A DNA stretch of 38,641 nucleotides from Candidatus Bathyarchaeota archaeon (GCA_903901015.1 CAIUPH010000042.1:1-38641), one strand, 5' to 3'; shown: positions 7,845 to 16,663, counted from the first letter of the stretch. The notes: generated by a model not told the origin, from the sequence alone. Numbers and translations are program-made.

Positions 7845-10250
7845 TTATGGTCTTTTGGTCAGCACCAAGTTGTCCTTGTCAAAAGCGTACTCGCCAAACC
7901 TCGCCGTGTAGTAGAGCCTCAGATATTCAGCTGCGAAACGCGGCTGGAACGGCAGGTCCTGCGGCATAAGCCGATCTTTCACTTTGAGGCGCTCTTCGAT
8001 GGCTGCTTCCGCCAGCGGATAGTTGAGCAGGAACTCTTTGCGTTCGCTGTAAACCCCCAGGGTCTGCACTGCCTCATCCACATAAGAGAGGTACTGGGGC
8101 AGGTTTTCCATTATCTGGTTGATCTTGTAGCTGGATGGGTTTGCAAGGGTTTCAGTTGCTATCTTTAGAAGTTCGCGTAGGGTGCTGTTTTTCTCCCAGA
8201 GGTAATCTTTTGTGGGCAATAAGCGGTCGATGGCTTCTTCATCGCTGATTAACCCAGCGTACAGCATGGATAAGACGTCGTTTGCGATTTCGAGGAACCC
8301 CTGCACGTCATCTTTCAGGGCGATAACGTCTAAAATGTCCAGTTTTTCTTTCTCCGCTCTCTCCGCAGCGGCGCTCTTCATTGCCTCAGCCCTCTTGGCG
8401 TAACCCAGCACTTTAGGGGTGTTTTCGCCGAAGACAGGAGGCAAAACCTCGCTTTGGAGGCTCAGGACAGCTATCGGCGCCAGCGACTTTTGCAGGTAAC
8501 GCATGGACACTTTGATTTCCGAGCCGTACTGCCGCTTCCAGTTGTTGACCGAACTGTACAGTGCCTCTATGGCTATCCAGGGCGCTTCTTTCGTGTCCAG
8601 TTTCTCGTTTGCAAATTCCACTGCGCGGCACTTCTGTGGAAGCGAAGGATCATAAAGGGGTCTGATGATGCCGTAGATCGGCTCGATAACCTCAACTACC
8701 TCTTTAGTGAGGGCTCTCCCGGCGTCCAGAACCTGCCTGATGGCTTCGATTCTCTGTTCCAGTGTCATCTCCTTTTGGTAAGCAGTGTTCACGCTTGTTT
8801 TGATATCTAACCCCGTGTCTTTGAGTTTTCCTTCCCAATTCGAGAACTCGCAGTACGCAAAAACCTGATATTCAGCCAAGATAACGTTAAGTTCCGCCTC
8901 TAAAGCATCGATATCTTTGCTTAAATTGCCAAGTTCTCCGAACTTTTTATCTAACTCTGACTGATCATAGGTTCGCATGAGAATTTTTTTGAGCGATTCA
9001 TCGACCGAGTCTTTGATGACTAACATTTTGCCTTCAGGAGAACTCACAATCACTGGAATGTTTTCCTTCACTTTGTCCAATTGACCTTCAATGAAACCTA
9101 ATTTATCTTTGAGTTCTTGAGCCCTCTTGGTAACCTCAGAAATTGACGTCGCCTGCTTTGGCGTAGTATCAATGAAGAGTACAGGTAACGTGAGGATAAG
9201 TGTCCCAAAAATCCCCAACACCATCGTTGTAGCGCTAACGTCAGCCGTAAACGCCAACGGTACTTGGAGAGCACTTAACAGCACAAAAAACACTGCTGCT
9301 GCAATGGTAGCAGTGAAGCATTGGAAAAATTTGTCGCCAGCGCCGATGATACCCTCTTTAATCATCATTCTTGTGAAGAACATGAGCGTCACAGCCAGCC
9401 CAACCACGATAACCACAAACATCAGTATGCCTGGAATAGAATCTCGATACTGAGTGACTGCATCGCCAATCGTGCGACCTGGCCAGCCAGGAATCCATGT
9501 GATTTGTCCAGCAATATCATAAACAACTTTGGACAGATCATAGAGTCGAAACTGACTCACGGAGCCGCCGATGTCTTTAGCAATCGAGGTTAAAGGAACA
9601 AGAAGCGGCGGACTGGAGCCAGGCTCAAGCCACCAATCGGATCTAACAATCGGTAAAACGGTGTATTGGAAATACTGCATGATCTGTAGGGGTACCGTAA
9701 GCAACACGTAATAGACAACCGTGAGAGTGACATATTTTTTGAAGTATACCGCTGAAGCCAAAATCAACGGGATAGCCAAAAAGTAAAGTGGAGCAAAGAA
9801 AAGCATGGTGACCGCCAGTATGCCAAAATCAATTGCAAGAGCGCTCTTGTAGCGGTTAGAAGTTAGGGGTAAAGCCACAAACAACGCCAGCCAAACAACG
9901 ACAAACGCCGCACGAACCGGGGTATTGCCGAGGAACGAAATAAAGTATAATTCAGCCAGATGGTACATCAAACCAAAACCGATAATGGCGCCGCCGATGG
10001 GCATGCCTAACCGTGGACTTTTATAAACAACAAACGCCACCAAAACTGCTAATAGAATTGGGAGGGGCTGGGGGAAAATCGGCAGAAAAGACATACCCAG
10101 AGCCATAGCAGTGGCGGTAAACAGAAAAGTGAGTATCTTAAGGGTTGAAGATTCAAGGTTACGTTCCTGCTCTTCCTTTTCCTTTCTCTTCTGCTTACGG
10201 GTTTTATACCAAGAGCTAACACCAGAACTCTTAAGGGAGGGCTTCTTCAC
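7845..10250 (-). CDS. polytopic membrane protein with long helical cytoplasmic domain
   Basis: An 801-aa protein in three parts. Residues 1-35 are strongly basic and cytoplasmic (TRKQKRKEKEEQER). Residues about 36-375 hold roughly ten hydrophobic segments, with a larger extracytoplasmic or re-entrant loop rich in Trp/Pro/Ser near residues 200-260. Residues about 376-801 are soluble and mostly helical, with coiled-coil-like heptads (SISEVTKRAQELKDKLGFIE) and no Cys cluster or known enzyme motif. The start is a GTG at 10250. It is transcribed divergently, 64 bases away, from the degenerate tubulin-like gene. I do not recognise the family. From its neighbours it is plausibly a membrane platform for tubulin-like filaments, but that is inference. 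Confidence 0.75.
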   Translation of the reverse strand: MKKPSLKSSGVSSWYKTRKQKRKEKEEQERNLESSTLKILTFLFTATAMALGMSFLPIFPQPLPILLAVLVAFVVYKSPRLGMPIGGAIIGFGLMYHLAELYFISFLGNTPVRAAFVVVWLALFVALPLTSNRYKSALAIDFGILAVTMLFFAPLYFLAIPLILASAVYFKKYVTLTVVYYVLLTVPLQIMQYFQYTVLPIVRSDWWLEPGSSPPLLVPLTSIAKDIGGSVSQFRLYDLSKVVYDIAGQITWIPGWPGRTIGDAVTQYRDSIPGILMFVVIVVGLAVTLMFFTRMMIKEGIIGAGDKFFQCFTATIAAAVFFVLLSALQVPLAFTADVSATTMVLGIFGTLILTLPVLFIDTTPKQATSISEVTKRAQELKDKLGFIEGQLDKVKENIPVIVSSPEGKMLVIKDSVDESLKKILMRTYDQSELDKKFGELGNLSKDIDALEAELNVILAEYQVFAYCEFSNWEGKLKDTGLDIKTSVNTAYQKEMTLEQRIEAIRQVLDAGRALTKEVVEVIEPIYGIIRPLYDPSLPQKCRAVEFANEKLDTKEAPWIAIEALYSSVNNWKRQYGSEIKVSMRYLQKSLAPIAVLSLQSEVLPPVFGENTPKVLGYAKRAEAMKSAAAERAEKEKLDILDVIALKDDVQGFLEIANDVLSMLYAGLISDEEAIDRLLPTKDYLWEKNSTLRELLKIATETLANPSSYKINQIMENLPQYLSYVDEAVQTLGVYSERKEFLLNYPLAEAAIEERLKVKDRLMPQDLPFQPRFAAEYLRLYYTARFGEYAFDKDNLVLTKRP

Positions 10251-10259
10251 GCAATCAAC

Positions 10260-10282
10260 TACCTAAAACCTTATTTTAGGTA
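10260..10282. promoter_or_regulatory. inverted repeat in the divergent promoter of the tubulin-like cluster
   Basis: Arms TACCTAAAA and TTTTAGGTA are perfect complements across a 5-base loop. The site fills the middle of the 64-base space between two divergent starts (GTG 10250 minus, ATG 10315 plus). AGGT, part of each arm, recurs just before the ATG. It could be an operator controlling both genes, or a hairpin in the minus-strand leader. Confidence 0.5.
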
Positions 10283-10314
10283 AACTCTTCTTAAAGTTTA
10301 TGTAGGTAACTCGG

Positions 10315-11790
10315 ATGAAAGATGGCAAAGGCACATTTGACGTGCTAGCAAGCATTGAGAAACATATTGAATCTCTAAAACCAATGTTGCCGAAACAAGC
10401 CTTAGTGTGCATCGGCGAATACCCCATAAAAACTCTCCTAAAAAAACCAAGCATCAACAAAGAAGGCACACTGCCAATTCTGATCGAAAAATCCAGCGAT
10501 GAAATCTACAAGTGGCTTCCAAAAGGCTATGAAGCCAATTTAGTTTTGGGCTTTGAAGACGCACACATCGACACCCACTTCTGGTACAACGTTTTACCTA
10601 CAGTTTCAAAGGATAATTCAGTGATCGAGAGTTTAAAGAAAAAGCCCACTGAAAAAATCCGCACAGCCATAATCTTTTCATCGATTTGGGATGGAATTGG
10701 AAGCGCTGCTCTACCAACGTTGATTGAGAAATTCAAAGCTGTAAACATGGATAGCCTCTCGATAGCGGTTTTGCCCTCGAAAATACAACCCGCCGACGCC
10801 CATTTCAATGCTTACGCCGCGTTGAAAACGTGCTCTGTCGTCGATGGCGCAACTGTTCTGCTCATGGAGAGAGACCAAATTGAAAGCTATGAGGGCGTTG
10901 ACCGAAAAGGCGAATTACTCAAGGGAAACATGGTTGCCAATTACCTCTTGAACCTGTTTTTAGCTAAAGACTCGCTTGTTGAAGAAATATCTGAGTTATC
11001 AAGGACTTTCAACATAAAATTATTCACTCCTATAGTGGTTGCGGGTGCAAGTTACAGGATTTACGGTTCCATAGAAAACATGTTAAACACTGCTTTGCTG
11101 AAACCGTTTTTAACGTTTGATTTGTCAAACGCCTCTTTACTGTACGTACTTTTACGCATGTCATCGACCCTGAAAGATAAGCTGCCCAGAGGAAAAATCG
11201 AGTTAGCAATAACAAACTGGTTTAAGGAAAAAACAACCCTACAATCAATCTACATAACTGAGCCAGTCTACACCGAAGACATGACCGATCGAATAGATGC
11301 GGTTTTGTTTGTGGGCGGTTTTGACACTTCCGTGTTGTTTGGTGATTTGGAGAAGAAGGTTGAACCGCTCAAAAACAGGGCAGTCGAGAGGGGTTTGATG
11401 TCTGCGGATTGGCGTGTTGAATTCAAAATTGAAGAACCTCCCAAGCCGGATCCGCTCAAAGTTGAAGAGCCACCAACAATCACTGAAGCGCCACTCTTGA
11501 GTGTTGAGGCGCCAAAAGTGGTGGCCAAAGCGCCAGTTGGCAAAGAAACAGAAAACACTAATACTCCTGAGATTGCTTCGGAAGAAGTGAAACCTGCTGA
11601 ACCGCCAGCATTAACTGTTGCAGTTCCTAAAATCGTTGAAGAGCCGCAGGCACCCATTGAACCAACTCAAGCTGCCGAAAAGCCAAAAATTACAAAACCA
11701 AAGAGAACTCGCAGAACCAAAAAGTTATCTACAAACAAAAAAGAAAAAATAGAAAAGGTTGATGCGCAGAAGGAACAAACTTCTGCCTAA
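10315..11790 (+). CDS. degenerate tubulin/FtsZ-like protein with Pro/Glu-rich tail
   Basis: A 491-aa protein. The core (residues about 1-370) follows the tubulin order. A strand leads into FSSIWDGIGSAALPTLIEKF (about residues 119-139), at the place of the GGGTGSG loop and helix. Then comes SIAVLPSKIQPADAHFNAYAALKTCS, which parallels the segment IAFVITPCGGDDPPAKGCSAFVAMNELS of the 883-aa neighbour. The GTP-binding glycine loop is eroded and there is no clear N-terminal GxGxxG, so nucleotide binding is doubtful. Residues about 370-460 form a Pro/Glu/Ala/Val linker with EEPPK- and EAPK-like repeats, followed by a basic tail (KPKRTRRTKKLSTNKKEK). It ends 8 bases from the convergent GTPase gene. 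The homology call rests on motif comparison by eye. Confidence 0.6.
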   Translation: MKDGKGTFDVLASIEKHIESLKPMLPKQALVCIGEYPIKTLLKKPSINKEGTLPILIEKSSDEIYKWLPKGYEANLVLGFEDAHIDTHFWYNVLPTVSKDNSVIESLKKKPTEKIRTAIIFSSIWDGIGSAALPTLIEKFKAVNMDSLSIAVLPSKIQPADAHFNAYAALKTCSVVDGATVLLMERDQIESYEGVDRKGELLKGNMVANYLLNLFLAKDSLVEEISELSRTFNIKLFTPIVVAGASYRIYGSIENMLNTALLKPFLTFDLSNASLLYVLLRMSSTLKDKLPRGKIELAITNWFKEKTTLQSIYITEPVYTEDMTDRIDAVLFVGGFDTSVLFGDLEKKVEPLKNRAVERGLMSADWRVEFKIEEPPKPDPLKVEEPPTITEAPLLSVEAPKVVAKAPVGKETENTNTPEIASEEVKPAEPPALTVAVPKIVEEPQAPIEPTQAAEKPKITKPKRTRRTKKLSTNKKEKIEKVDAQKEQTSA

Positions 11791-11798
11791 CTTAGTTT

Positions 11799-14450
11799 TT
11801 ACTTTTTGTTATTGCCATTGTTGTTGGCGTGGTTGCCGTTTATTTCCTTGATGATTTGTGAAGCGTGGACTCCGTGTTCCAGTAGGAATGAGCGCGAGAG
11901 GTATCTTTCGAAATCGCTGGATTTGCTGTAGAGCAGTTGCATTTCGTCGTAGGATTCCATGTCTTCGGGTTTGCCTCGTCCGCCGACCACCATGACTCTG
12001 GTTGTCCAAGCATCTCTTGATTCAATGACTCGTACAGTGATTGTTCTTGAGACTTCGCTGGTTACATAGCCGGCTAGCGCAGTGTAGACTTCTTGAGAGA
12101 GGTCCTCTGACCACATGTGTGGTGGGGTGGAGACGGTTACCCATATGTAGTCGGTCTTGTAGGTGGGTTTGAATCCCATGACGCTTGGTGTTTTGAAAGC
12201 TCGGATAACGCTTTTCATGTAGTCTTTGAAGTGGTCCATGTCAAAGATTTGCCTGAAGATTACTTCGCGGGTTAATGTGTCTTCTTGTTCCGTGAGGATT
12301 TTGAATATTATTTTTAGTTGTTCGTGTTCGGTTAAGTCCGCTGTTTTCTCAAAGTAGGGTTTTTGCGCACCTATCTCAGCAATCTTGGCGTTGTATTCAT
12401 TGTGTAAATCAACGATTTTGTTCAAGCGCTTGCGGTATTCAGAAACTAACTCGAACCGTTTTGCCAATTTTTCGTAGAGTTTGATTGTGCTGTCAACTTT
12501 GTTGAGGTTTTCAATTGCGAAAGCCTCTTCCTGCTCTACTCGCTTGAGTTCCCTGTCTATATCCAACAGTTGTTCTCTGGCATACCGTTTGCTGCTGAGG
12601 AACTTTCTCACCTGCCGCTCCATTTTTGTTTTGTCGAATTCTTTGCGTTTCTTAATCTCTTGAACCCTCATGACTTCGTTGTCGAAGTTTCCTCGTTTCT
12701 GCATGCGTTGGGTTAGGATTTCGTTGACGTATGTTAGATGTTCGTCGATCATTCTGGCTTCGTCGGCTGGTGTCCTTAGCATAAGTTGGATAATTAGGTA
12801 GATGGTTCCTAGTTCGGTTTGGATGTTCTCTAAGTCTTCAAGTTCGGCTTTGCATTCAGGCAGAACTTTATAGTATCGCATCAATGCGTCTGTTAGGTAC
12901 CGGGTTTCGTCGTAGAATCTGAGGATACTTAGTGATCTTTCCGCAAGTTCAGCTATGTTGACTAGGTCGTCTAGAACTTTCTTTTGTCTTAGGTTGAAGG
13001 TTTGTGAGCTTGGAATAAGCTGGTTTAAGCGTTCAACAATTGCTGCTTTTCGCTGAGGGAATTCTAAATAGGTCTTTGTTAGATTCGTTAGCAAGACTTC
13101 TAAGTTGTCTAGTTTTCTGTTGCCATCTTTGCGCAGAGTCAAGTTTATGATGGTTTCTTCGATGGGACCTATCTTACCCATGAGTTTTATGGTGGAGAGG
13201 AACTTCATTATGTCAGCTAGCCAGTTTTTGACCTGTATCTCCGTTCCTTTAACATGTAACATTGTATCGTCTTCAAGTTGGGGGTTGCTGTTTATGGTGG
13301 TTTTCAGTTTTTCCTCGAACTGTTCTTCATTGAAGGTGCCTGTTTTTATGAGGTAGTTCTTGAAGAGTTCTCTTATGATTTCGCTGTCTACTTTAATGAC
13401 GTTGTTAATTTCTTCGAGGATGTCAAGTTTTTCTTTTCTTGATTCCTGCAGCAGTTGCATTCCTTCAAAATTCAACTTGTAAGCCATAATGTAGTCTTCA
13501 ACTGGATAGGTCACTTTTGTCATACCCAAGGTATGAGATGAATTGTTAGTTAGGCCCACTTCAGTTCCTATACCGCCCAACAGGTCTGCCAAGTCAAAGT
13601 CCATTAAGACATACAGTAGGTCTACGACCATTTGATCCATTTCTTGTCTTGCGCTTACTATGTTGCCGACCTTAGAGAAGGCTGGCAATAAAGGTAGGTA
13701 GACTAAGGCATTGATTGGGTTTCGGTAAATTTCCCCATAATTTTTGATGACATACTCATTGTAATCTTTGTTAAGCAATAGTGAAAGTTCGTTCATGGCT
13801 ACGAAGGCTGAGCATCCTTTTGCTGGAGGATCATCTCCACCGCACGGAGTAATAACGAAAGCTATGATTGGGACACCTGAACCCAACACTTTTCGCAGGT
13901 GCCTAGCAAAGTCAAAGAACACACCGCTTCCAGTGCCACCACCAAGTCCATAAACCAAAACTACTGTTGGAGTCACAATGGACGAAAGCGCCTGTTCTTT
14001 AAACGAGTTAATGCAGTTACGAATTATGCCTAGTTGGTAGTAGTTTAGGGCGTAGATTGCTTTCGCAAGAGCTCTTCTTCGACCCGCACCACCAGCCATT
14101 GGTGGAATAGCCATTGTGTTTTGTAGCCAAGGGACAAAGGTTTCGAGTTTTGAACCTTCACCAATTAAGTATTCACCATATTTTTGGTTGATGAAGTCAA
14201 ACATTGCTTCGGCAGTGGGAAATTTGACTGATTGAGCGGTCAAACGCATTCGTTCACGTGGGACACCAGCTTTAATCATTGATCTGACTGTTTGCTCATA
14301 TGTTTCTTGTAGGCTTCTGATTTCTGGGTCAGCTATGTCTATGGCTAAAAGAGAAAGACGAGTCAGGTCATTCTCTAATAGTTCTTTGGTTTTTTTGTTT
14401 GATAAGAAAGTTTCAACTATGTTGGTACCTGCTGAACCAAGACCAATCAA
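11799..14450 (-). CDS. large tubulin/FtsZ-like GTPase with helical insertion
   Basis: An 883-aa member of the tubulin superfamily. The N-terminal GTPase shows IGLGSAGTN (2-10), a Gly-rich T3-like loop PPMAGGAGRRR (116-126), the tubulin signature GLGGGTGSG (168-176) and a T7-like catalytic loop DFDLADL (284-290) that keeps the two spaced acidic residues of FtsZ. Residues about 330-730 are long charged helices (EFDKTKMERQVRKFLSSKRY). A beta-rich part (YIWVTVSTPPHMW, VMVVGGRGKPEDME) near 770-840 looks like the tubulin C-terminal domain, and an Asn-rich tail follows. The start is unclear: the frame has only TTG 14450, which trims the first strand (SVQL lies just upstream). It follows the 318-aa anchor gene by 33 bases. 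Family: FtsZ-like or Tubulin_2-like, not cell-division FtsZ itself. Confidence 0.85.
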   Translation of the reverse strand: MIGLGSAGTNIVETFLSNKKTKELLENDLTRLSLLAIDIADPEIRSLQETYEQTVRSMIKAGVPRERMRLTAQSVKFPTAEAMFDFINQKYGEYLIGEGSKLETFVPWLQNTMAIPPMAGGAGRRRALAKAIYALNYYQLGIIRNCINSFKEQALSSIVTPTVVLVYGLGGGTGSGVFFDFARHLRKVLGSGVPIIAFVITPCGGDDPPAKGCSAFVAMNELSLLLNKDYNEYVIKNYGEIYRNPINALVYLPLLPAFSKVGNIVSARQEMDQMVVDLLYVLMDFDLADLLGGIGTEVGLTNNSSHTLGMTKVTYPVEDYIMAYKLNFEGMQLLQESRKEKLDILEEINNVIKVDSEIIRELFKNYLIKTGTFNEEQFEEKLKTTINSNPQLEDDTMLHVKGTEIQVKNWLADIMKFLSTIKLMGKIGPIEETIINLTLRKDGNRKLDNLEVLLTNLTKTYLEFPQRKAAIVERLNQLIPSSQTFNLRQKKVLDDLVNIAELAERSLSILRFYDETRYLTDALMRYYKVLPECKAELEDLENIQTELGTIYLIIQLMLRTPADEARMIDEHLTYVNEILTQRMQKRGNFDNEVMRVQEIKKRKEFDKTKMERQVRKFLSSKRYAREQLLDIDRELKRVEQEEAFAIENLNKVDSTIKLYEKLAKRFELVSEYRKRLNKIVDLHNEYNAKIAEIGAQKPYFEKTADLTEHEQLKIIFKILTEQEDTLTREVIFRQIFDMDHFKDYMKSVIRAFKTPSVMGFKPTYKTDYIWVTVSTPPHMWSEDLSQEVYTALAGYVTSEVSRTITVRVIESRDAWTTRVMVVGGRGKPEDMESYDEMQLLYSKSSDFERYLSRSFLLEHGVHASQIIKEINGNHANNNGNNKK

Positions 14451-14483
14451 CTGAACGCTGTTTTGGTAGATTCGCGTAGTCTA

Positions 14484-15440
14484 TCACATCCCAACTAATC
14501 TTTTTAGCCTGTCTTTAACTGACTCAAGACTTGAGGACATTGCTCTATCGATTTTAGAGACTCTGATCGTTAAACCTTCTAAGTCTTTGATTTGGTCTTC
14601 AACTACAAGCTGGAAGTAGCTAATTTTTCCACGTATTCTCAAGAACAAGACCACGAATATAACCGCTACAACTGCTAACACAGCTATTACAGGTATAAAG
14701 AGCATTTCCGTCGCTGAAGTTACTGGTGCATTTGAGGCATTAAGACTGCTTAAGAGAGCTGTTGCATCTTTAACGTCACCTGCGTTAGCTATAGTTCTGG
14801 ATGCGTTGAGAACGTTGGTGAAGATATCGATGTATCCTTGGGCAACTCCGCTTGATATGAGTCCTTTCAGCTTTGTTTCTTGTTGAGAATAGAGTACATT
14901 AAAGTTGGCTAAACCCGGGCTAGTTGCCTGAACTGTTATTTGGTCGAGGGCAGTTCCACCTGAACCTCCGTATAAACTAACAAGGTTAATAGTCTGTGCC
15001 AGGGGTGAGACGCTGGTTGGAACCTTACCATATAGAACCATATCAAAGGTTTCTCCCGCGGTCGATTGGAACGTTGTAGATTGGGATGCTGGGTTGTAGT
15101 TTGTGCCCATATCGTACGTTGTGCTTTGAAGGTCCCAGTAGCCGCTGGGATGAGAAGTAGATTTTTGTAGGCTTGTTGAAAGTCTCAATGTATCTCCGAC
15201 TTGTGCAATAATGTTTATTGTGAATGTGACTTTGATGTCGGCTCCAGGTAATACTGGTGCCAAAGTGTTTGTTGTATTAGTTATGGGATCATATTGAACC
15301 AGGAGTTGCCCTGACGAATCTTCAATTGTGTATGTCGTTATCCATTGTCCTTCACCAACAGCTTTAGCTGGCGAGAAGGACATTATCATCATAGTTGTTA
15401 AAATGATTAGTAAACTTAGAGCTAGAATTTTGTTTTTCAA
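14484..15440 (-). CDS. secreted-domain membrane anchor with cytoplasmic coiled coil
   Basis: A 318-aa protein. Residues 1-27 are a signal peptide (KNKILALSLLIILTTMMIM, then AKA). Residues about 28-240 form an extracytoplasmic, Ser/Thr-rich beta domain with Ig-like or adhesin-like character. Residues about 246-270 are one membrane helix (LFIPVIAVLAVVAVIFVVLF), and the last 48 residues are a cytoplasmic coiled coil (VEDQIKDLEGLTIRVSKI). The start is TTG 15440, with GGAG 12 bases upstream and a TATA-like element at 15471-15482. It is the first gene before the tubulin-like GTPase, in the same frame, with tandem TGA-TAG stops between them. The likely role is a transmembrane link between an outside structure and the GTPase filament. 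No named family is recognised. Confidence 0.78.
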   Translation of the reverse strand: MKNKILALSLLIILTTMMIMSFSPAKAVGEGQWITTYTIEDSSGQLLVQYDPITNTTNTLAPVLPGADIKVTFTINIIAQVGDTLRLSTSLQKSTSHPSGYWDLQSTTYDMGTNYNPASQSTTFQSTAGETFDMVLYGKVPTSVSPLAQTINLVSLYGGSGGTALDQITVQATSPGLANFNVLYSQQETKLKGLISSGVAQGYIDIFTNVLNASRTIANAGDVKDATALLSSLNASNAPVTSATEMLFIPVIAVLAVVAVIFVVLFLRIRGKISYFQLVVEDQIKDLEGLTIRVSKIDRAMSSSLESVKDRLKRLVGM

Positions 15441-15733: not shown

Positions 15734-16663
15734 ATGGAAGTCATAAACGTACGTTTACCCGACAAATTAACTCAAGACATAGATAAACTATCCAAAAAAC
15801 ACAGCCTCACCCGCTCAGAAGTCATGCGCCAAGCCTTAACCATCTACCTGCACCTGACCGAAAACGCCGGCACCATGCTGAGACCAACAGTTTTCCAGGT
15901 GAAACCTGCCCAAATAAGCTACACACGAAGAGGCGACGTTTCAATCCTAAAGGTTCCAACGGGACACGCCATCGTAGCAGGATCAACCTCATCTGGAGCG
16001 GTTGGACCCAAAGAAATGGACAAAGTTAAAGTGGATGGGCGTGTGCTGGGAAAGTTCTTGGCAAGAGTAGCCTTGATGGATGTTACCACAACGGGTGCGT
16101 TTCCGCTGCTTTTGTCTGTTACGTTGGGCGTGGAAAAGGAGCCCACAGGCAACGCCATACTTGAAGGGATAAGGCGGGAAGCCAGAAGCATCGGGCTTGA
16201 CCCAAACCAGGTGCTGATGGAGAAAACAGAGGAAAACTTTGCAACCGTGCAGACGGGCGCTGGATTAACCGTGGTCGGCTTCGCAAATGAGGAGGACCTT
16301 CGGATTGGAAAAACATGCCCCGGCGACTTAATCGTCGCAATCGGAAAACCCAAGGTAGGAGACGAAGTCATCGCGGCAGAAGCCCGCAACGAAATCGCAG
16401 ACCTCAAAAACGTAACTCAGCTCTCACAGAGAAAATACGTCCATGACATCTGGCCAGTCGGCGGATTCGGAATTGCCAGCGAAGCCAGAATGATGGCGTA
16501 CGGCGTCGGCAGACAAATAAAAATCTGCGAGGCAGCGGGGCTGGATTTGAATAAGTCCGCGGGTCCAGCCACAGTCATATTGGCAACCATCGACAAAGAC
16601 AGGCTGGAAGATTTAACAGCACTAATCCCCAAACCCATCAACACAATAGGAGAAATCCTATAG
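15734..16663 (+). CDS. ribbon-helix-helix / AIR-synthase-like fusion
   Basis: A 309-aa protein. Residues 1-45 form a CopG/NikR-type ribbon-helix-helix: strand VINVRLPDKLTQDID, then helices ending in TRSEVMRQALTIYL. Residues about 65-309 look like an AIR-synthase/SelD/ThiL-type ATP-binding fold: GSTSSGAVGPKEMDKVKVDG, then TTTGAFPLLLSVTLGVEKEPTG, GAGLTVVGFANEEDLRIGKTCPGD, and HDIWPVGGFGIASEA. A DNA-binding domain joined to a nucleotide-binding sensor suggests a ligand-responsive regulator, but no ligand can be read from the sequence. The gene is divergent from the anchor-GTPase operon and shares the inverted repeat at 15559-15590 with it. Purine genes lie 8 kb away. Confidence 0.75.
   Translation: MEVINVRLPDKLTQDIDKLSKKHSLTRSEVMRQALTIYLHLTENAGTMLRPTVFQVKPAQISYTRRGDVSILKVPTGHAIVAGSTSSGAVGPKEMDKVKVDGRVLGKFLARVALMDVTTTGAFPLLLSVTLGVEKEPTGNAILEGIRREARSIGLDPNQVLMEKTEENFATVQTGAGLTVVGFANEEDLRIGKTCPGDLIVAIGKPKVGDEVIAAEARNEIADLKNVTQLSQRKYVHDIWPVGGFGIASEARMMAYGVGRQIKICEAAGLDLNKSAGPATVILATIDKDRLEDLTALIPKPINTIGEIL

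Follow-up and report, generated by a model that had tools for sequence, protein, structure and literature searches.

Four neighbouring genes in an archaeal genome, encoding two tubulin-like proteins and two membrane proteins, raise the question of whether they build one machine and, if so, of what kind. The window (the whole 38,641-nt stretch of DNA analysed) belongs to a 2.05-Mb genome (G000; 97% complete) that we placed in the genus of Candidatus Bathycorpusculum (Bathyarchaeia). The first-pass annotation had read the genes at 7845-15440 as possible parts of a shared apparatus linking cell surface and cytoskeleton. We examined each protein, the inheritance of the block, and its relation to known tubulin-type systems.

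Gene layout of the locus

All four open reading frames were present with the coordinates and strands originally reported. We refer to them as MEM801 (polytopic membrane protein; 7845-10250, minus strand, ORF confirmed), TUB491 (second tubulin; 10315-11790, plus strand), TUB883 (tubulin-like GTPase; minus strand) and SEC318 (anchor; 14484-15440, minus strand). TUB883 was first given as 883 aa from a TTG start (11799-14450), and extends to 892 aa (11799-14477) with the ACG start discussed below. From the SEC318 stop to this start the gap is 6 nt; an 8-nt gap separates the convergent genes TUB883 and TUB491, and a 64-nt gap the divergent genes TUB491 and MEM801.

TUB883 is a predicted GTPase of the FtsZl1/Tubulin_2 family

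Pfam searches, alignments and structure prediction were combined to characterize TUB883. The protein matched Tubulin_2 (PF13809) with 55.3 bits (cut-off 27; E = 8.7e-15), and its distant relatives also exceeded this cut-off; the score against PF00091 was 30.6 bits, below the curated cut-off of 33. Alignment placed a T1 GTP loop, GLGSAGTN, at 14421-14444 (minus strand) and a T4 signature loop, GGGTGSG, at 13923-13943 (minus strand), the latter invariant in the TUB883 alignments and reading GGGSGSG in the divergent locus L085. By hhalign, TUB883 aligned with a bathyarchaeal FtsZ from T4 to T7, with VLMDFDLADL opposite SLINLDFADF, the T7 catalytic loop (E = 2.3e-4 overall, from a single comparison). 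The resulting T7-like loop, DFDLAD (13584-13601, minus strand), pairs with NLDFAD of FtsZ, and D-x-[AS]-D is kept in all distant relatives. By its sequence, TUB883 is thus assigned to the FtsZl1/Tubulin_2 family and, by motif, is apparently an active GTPase; of the earlier description of an apparently active 883-aa tubulin-like GTPase, only the length needed correction.

With an N-terminal GTPase domain, a long coiled coil and an extra C-terminal part, TUB883 shares the layout of the FtsZl1/Tubulin_2 proteins described by Makarova and Koonin (2010, PMC2875224). T6-H7 of FtsZl1 was not confidently identified in that study, whereas a T7-like loop can be assigned in TUB883. AlphaFold2 predicted a helical or coiled-coil region of ~430 residues (about 326-770; 12168-13502, minus strand) with pLDDT mostly 85-94, the modelled helices covering residues 326-743; the GTPase half was modelled only moderately (pLDDT about 40-85), and the model matched tubulins weakly in Foldseek (best 0.028). 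A conserved C-terminal beta-alpha-beta-beta pattern occupies residues 777-832, a low-confidence region of the model. By eye it could be an FtsZ C-terminal domain pushed away from the GTPase domain by the helices, but profile comparison of this stretch with FtsZ_C was not significant, and column-shuffled controls scored higher. TUB883 differs from CetZ/FtsZ proteins, despite its alignment with bathyarchaeal FtsZ, in falling under the PF00091 cut-off and in showing no FtsZ_C domain in this comparison.

A conserved ACG start codon in TUB883

Several features of the alignment argue against the TTG at 14450 as the start of TUB883. Initiation there would fall within the first beta strand (LIGLGSAGTN), and the position is not conserved, being CTG, CTA, CTC, TTA or GTC in most relatives. 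In the stretch reaching nine codons 5' of it, nearly every relative of the same GTDB family has R/K-x-Y-Q-N-S-V-Q. Of the 22 distinct sequences, 20 have ACG as the codon preceding this motif, and the other two have ATG and TTG. In the window, this ACG lies at 14475-14477 (minus strand), 6 nt past the SEC318 stop, and GGGATGTGAT-type sequence stands immediately 5' of it, at that stop. Conserved-ACG loci span several genera (the window, L036-L048, L056, L057 and L093), and more distant TUB883 relatives mostly start with ATG.

ACG accounts for 8.5% of the remaining threonine codons in these genes. Because the ACG is conserved while the codon just upstream varies freely among relatives, because invariant internal threonine codons differ in their third base, and because the TTG is not conserved, we concluded from the alignments that translation truly begins at the ACG, giving a predicted protein of 892 residues. 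Quite apart from the module, this would be an unusual archaeal example of a non-standard initiator that has stayed in use over a long time. Its position right after the SEC318 stop would probably hold TUB883 translation low and coupled to that of the anchor.

TUB491 is a degenerate tubulin by predicted fold

Single-sequence searches with TUB491 were marginal: PF00091 gave E = 0.044 (14.5 bits), below its cut-off, and no Pfam model scored over its own. Searching the PDB with a family profile was far more informative, as all 38 matches at E ≤ 1 were tubulin-superfamily chains (best 2.1e-6). The AlphaFold2 model (pLDDT 84.5, pTM 0.84) most closely resembled CetZ2, TubZ, CetZ and FtsZ in Foldseek (CetZ2: E = 3.5e-16, TM 0.67/0.76), giving the confident tubulin/CetZ fold that the annotation of a degenerate 491-aa tubulin had anticipated.

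The nucleotide motifs are degraded, setting TUB491 apart from CetZ/FtsZ proteins. T1 reads CIGEYPIK; T4 reads WDGIGSA (10687-10707, plus strand; alignment) where GGGTGSG is expected, and LGEGVTAG in other lineages; and inspection by eye recognised no T7 D-x-x-D. Given the confident fold and the degraded T1 and T4, TUB491 is, on the model, a tubulin, and probably one without GTPase activity. Its Pro/Glu/Lys tail (residues 369-491; 11419-11787, plus strand) is variable in the alignment and almost absent in some relatives, which marks the Pro/Glu tail noted earlier as optional in evolution.

Profile comparison detected no link between TUB883 and TUB491 (E = 0.49; 0.0067 with wider profiles), and their kinship therefore rests on fold and on the match of each to tubulins. 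In BtubA/BtubB and other two-tubulin polymers, two tubulin-fold proteins are likewise encoded side by side. The present pair differs from BtubA/BtubB in that TUB491 has lost its GTP loops and TUB883 has a large helical region, and the sequences are not close.

SEC318 and MEM801 are predicted membrane partners

Hydropathy and alignment of SEC318 indicate a signal peptide, a secreted beta-rich domain, one TM segment (residues 247-265) and a cytoplasmic tail of ~50 residues. The tail (residues 269-318; 14487-14636, minus strand) has a mean pairwise identity of 79.7%, vs 46.4% for the outer domain, and includes the motif DQIKDLEGLT-R---IDR. Conservation inside and divergence outside are what a tail docking on a conserved cytoplasmic partner predicts, suggesting that these near-invariant 50 residues are likely a docking site.

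For MEM801, family-averaged hydropathy gave 9 hydrophobic segments between residues 40 and 360, followed by a 440-aa part with none. The membrane region (residues 38-361; 9168-10139, minus strand) probably makes 10 passes, as the charges, judged by hand, would fit 10 passes with both termini inside; the cytoplasmic region (residues 362-801; 7848-9167, minus strand) is helical by composition. The predicted topologies thus agree with the first-pass reading of a secreted-domain anchor and of a polytopic protein with a long helical cytoplasmic part. SEC318 had no Pfam match above cut-off and MEM801 none at all; PDB and Pfam matches that might have suggested functions for either were weak and inconsistent, and were disregarded.

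The four genes are inherited as one module

Next, we searched for each of the four families in the same set of 201 Bathyarchaeia genomes. TUB883 was found in 32, MEM801 in 30, TUB491 in 30 (leaving out G424, where the profile match overlaps an FtsZ-type PF00091 gene) and SEC318 in 29, with all four together in 26. Pairwise co-occurrence yielded Fisher p = 1e-27 to 1e-32, values that overstate the evidence because the test takes genomes as independent; its strength lies in there being no intact counter-example except the divergent G078, where a lone TUB883 relative adjoins a Cdc6 gene. In the discordant genomes G005, G209, G320, G483 and G024, the absent gene falls past a contig end or in near-end sequence, and G459 carries diverged versions of all four families.

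Gene order is similarly stable. Every locus of the Bathycorpusculum genus with enough flank reads SEC318> TUB883> <TUB491 MEM801>, and the same order recurs in other Bathyarchaeia down to ~51% TUB883 identity; across complete Bathyarchaeia loci, order and orientation are constant, divergent ones excepted. Within the genus the block often occupies the same chromosomal site, syntenic between relatives. In G023 it is missing exactly: RHH309 (RHH/AIRS) directly adjoins the phosphoribosyltransferase gene that elsewhere flanks MEM801, and the block was therefore gained or lost whole.

Relatives extend to other classes of the phylum (L086-L090). There the SEC318 and TUB883 relatives lie side by side, a MEM801 relative comes directly or almost directly beside them, and a TUB491 relative completes the set of four, with gene order either kept or rearranged; TUB491 and MEM801, divergent in the window, are in tandem elsewhere. 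Profile comparisons with the outer-class relatives gave E = 1.4e-12 for MEM801, 5.6e-29 for SEC318 and 3.4e-7 for TUB491. In G357 and G459, TUB491 takes a zinc-ribbon form, which gave E = 9.5e-8, and the outer TUB491 forms pooled gave 2.5e-16. Together, these data establish the four genes as one inherited module, and a single functional module is highly probable. The proposal of a shared machine accordingly withstood both the co-occurrence check, the four families being found together almost perfectly and in fixed order, and the fold check on TUB491.

Relation to known FtsZl1 systems

FtsZl1 was described as a family with vWA, protein kinase and P-loop GTPase neighbours (PMC2875224), and the block could be nothing more than this membrane-remodelling or vesicle system, as described by Makarova and Koonin, with partners specific to its lineage. 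TUB883 belongs by sequence to Tubulin_2 (FtsZl1) and has a coiled coil, and the same study suggested a role in membrane remodelling and reported TM neighbours particular to certain lineages. However, no vWA, protein kinase or P-loop GTPase gene was found in the block or the ten nearby window genes scanned, and the phylum holds the vWA type as a separate variant: L091:49-3171 (G420) is a classic vWA and FtsZl1 gene pair distinct from the four-gene block. Nor does PMC2875224 describe a second tubulin. We consider this identity unlikely, though it deserves some weight.

The comparison instead favours a variant of the FtsZl1 kind lacking the vWA partner, with a degenerate second tubulin, a ~10-pass membrane protein and a secreted-domain anchor in place of the vWA, kinase and P-loop GTPase set. 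Two Sulfolobales FtsZL1 proteins are mentioned in the literature. SSO1376 of the related archaeon S. solfataricus is an FtsZl1 in Crenarchaeota with an interrupted gene (PMC2875224); in G357, which shares its phylum with the window genome, the module is present but its TUB883 gene is split in two frames, which is reminiscent of that interruption. Compared by description, SSO1376 differs from the window block in that its neighbours are not presented as a module in PMC2875224. Neither the four-gene module nor the TUB491 family is described in the literature searched; the search covered few subscription papers and preprints, and we therefore do not claim priority.

Division, conflict and partition as alternative roles

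Many archaea divide by tubulin-fold proteins, and a search of G000 with PF00091 returned no other match, as would be expected if the block were a division machine replacing FtsZ. Against this, the near-complete relatives G001, G010 and G026 carry neither the module nor any PF00091 match, G007 and G014 have an FtsZ/CetZ-type gene as well as the module, and the block is patchily distributed. ESCRT-III-like matches, which also speak against a division role, were found in 32/32 genus genomes, with weak E-values, and the S. acidocaldarius control likewise fell under the curated cut-off. Because near-complete relatives lack both the block and PF00091 while others have both, the block is accessory and a role as the division machine is improbable.

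An anti-virus or conflict system, which would perturb the membrane once triggered, could also fit the patchy occurrence of the block, its loss in one piece and its combination of a GTPase with membrane proteins. PADLOC matched none of the four proteins, and the often constant site within the genus and slow TUB883 evolution (69-86% identity to the window protein within the genus and neighbour genus) are unlike fast-moving defence islands, making such a system hard to credit. A TubZ-type DNA-partition system on a mobile element, for which the Cdc6/Orc1 gene beside the lone divergent relative (L085) might speak, is very improbable, as the block has no DNA-binding partner and two membrane proteins as constant members, its site is syntenic between relatives, and none of the viral contigs searched encodes a TUB883 relative.

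A proposed membrane-attached tubulin-type machine

Joint retention and joint loss of the four genes over a good part of a large archaeal group make it very probable that they encode a single, apparently undescribed membrane-attached cytoskeletal machine other than the division machine. In the mechanism that we propose, TUB883 would bind GTP and assemble on the inner face of the membrane, with its helical region extending to the partners. TUB491 may serve as a pseudo-subunit unable to hydrolyse GTP; it would join, cap or nucleate the polymer of TUB883 and, judging from gene neighbourhood, could couple it to MEM801. SEC318 would hold the assembly in place by its near-invariant cytoplasmic tail, with its outer domain touching the S-layer or another surface structure, and GTP turnover would move, bend or organise membrane and surface. 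We infer that the proteins co-assemble, that GTP drives the polymer, that the SEC318 tail is the docking point, that the machine is linked to the surface and, as to purpose, that it has a cell-surface-to-cytoskeleton role. Taken whole, an accessory membrane-attached tubulin-type machine, with a GTP-driven polymer and tethers to membrane and surface, is an account that we modestly favour. More tentatively, the module may be a machine of ancient origin in the phylum: a catalytic tubulin carrying its own helical arm would co-assemble with a pseudo-tubulin on a polytopic membrane protein dedicated to them and on a membrane-spanning surface anchor, making a cytoskeleton-to-surface motor or scaffold that has no described counterpart.

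To our knowledge, FtsZl1 proteins, known since 2010, have no established function. For one phylum, the module supplies them with a constant set of partners, four families that stay together across classes, and it names two membrane partners along with a tail as the likely docking site. TUB491 would add a branch of the tubulin superfamily with degraded GTP loops.

Additional observations at related loci

In G015, a ~3.7-kb insertion (L031:1200-4900) separates TUB883 from TUB491 and contains two ORFs, one of 495 aa that by eye resembles perforins (MACPF) and one of 232 aa; contigs of G004 and G012 break at the same place, which suggests similar inserts. The divergent TUB883 relative of G078 is a 961-aa ORF without membrane partners, followed directly by the Cdc6/Orc1 gene (L085:10405-14637). 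In the outer lineages L086, L088, L089, L090 and L193, a fifth gene of ~250-300 aa, missing from the Bathyarchaeia block, adjoins the module; its copies are detectably alike only between L088 and L089 and, weakly, between L193 and L090. Flanking the block in the window, 15734-16663 encodes a ribbon-helix-helix protein, part of which is AIR-synthase-like. In many relatives this gene stands beside GHMP kinase, cytidylyltransferase-like and ECF transporter genes, and its product is possibly a regulator of the CoA pathway.
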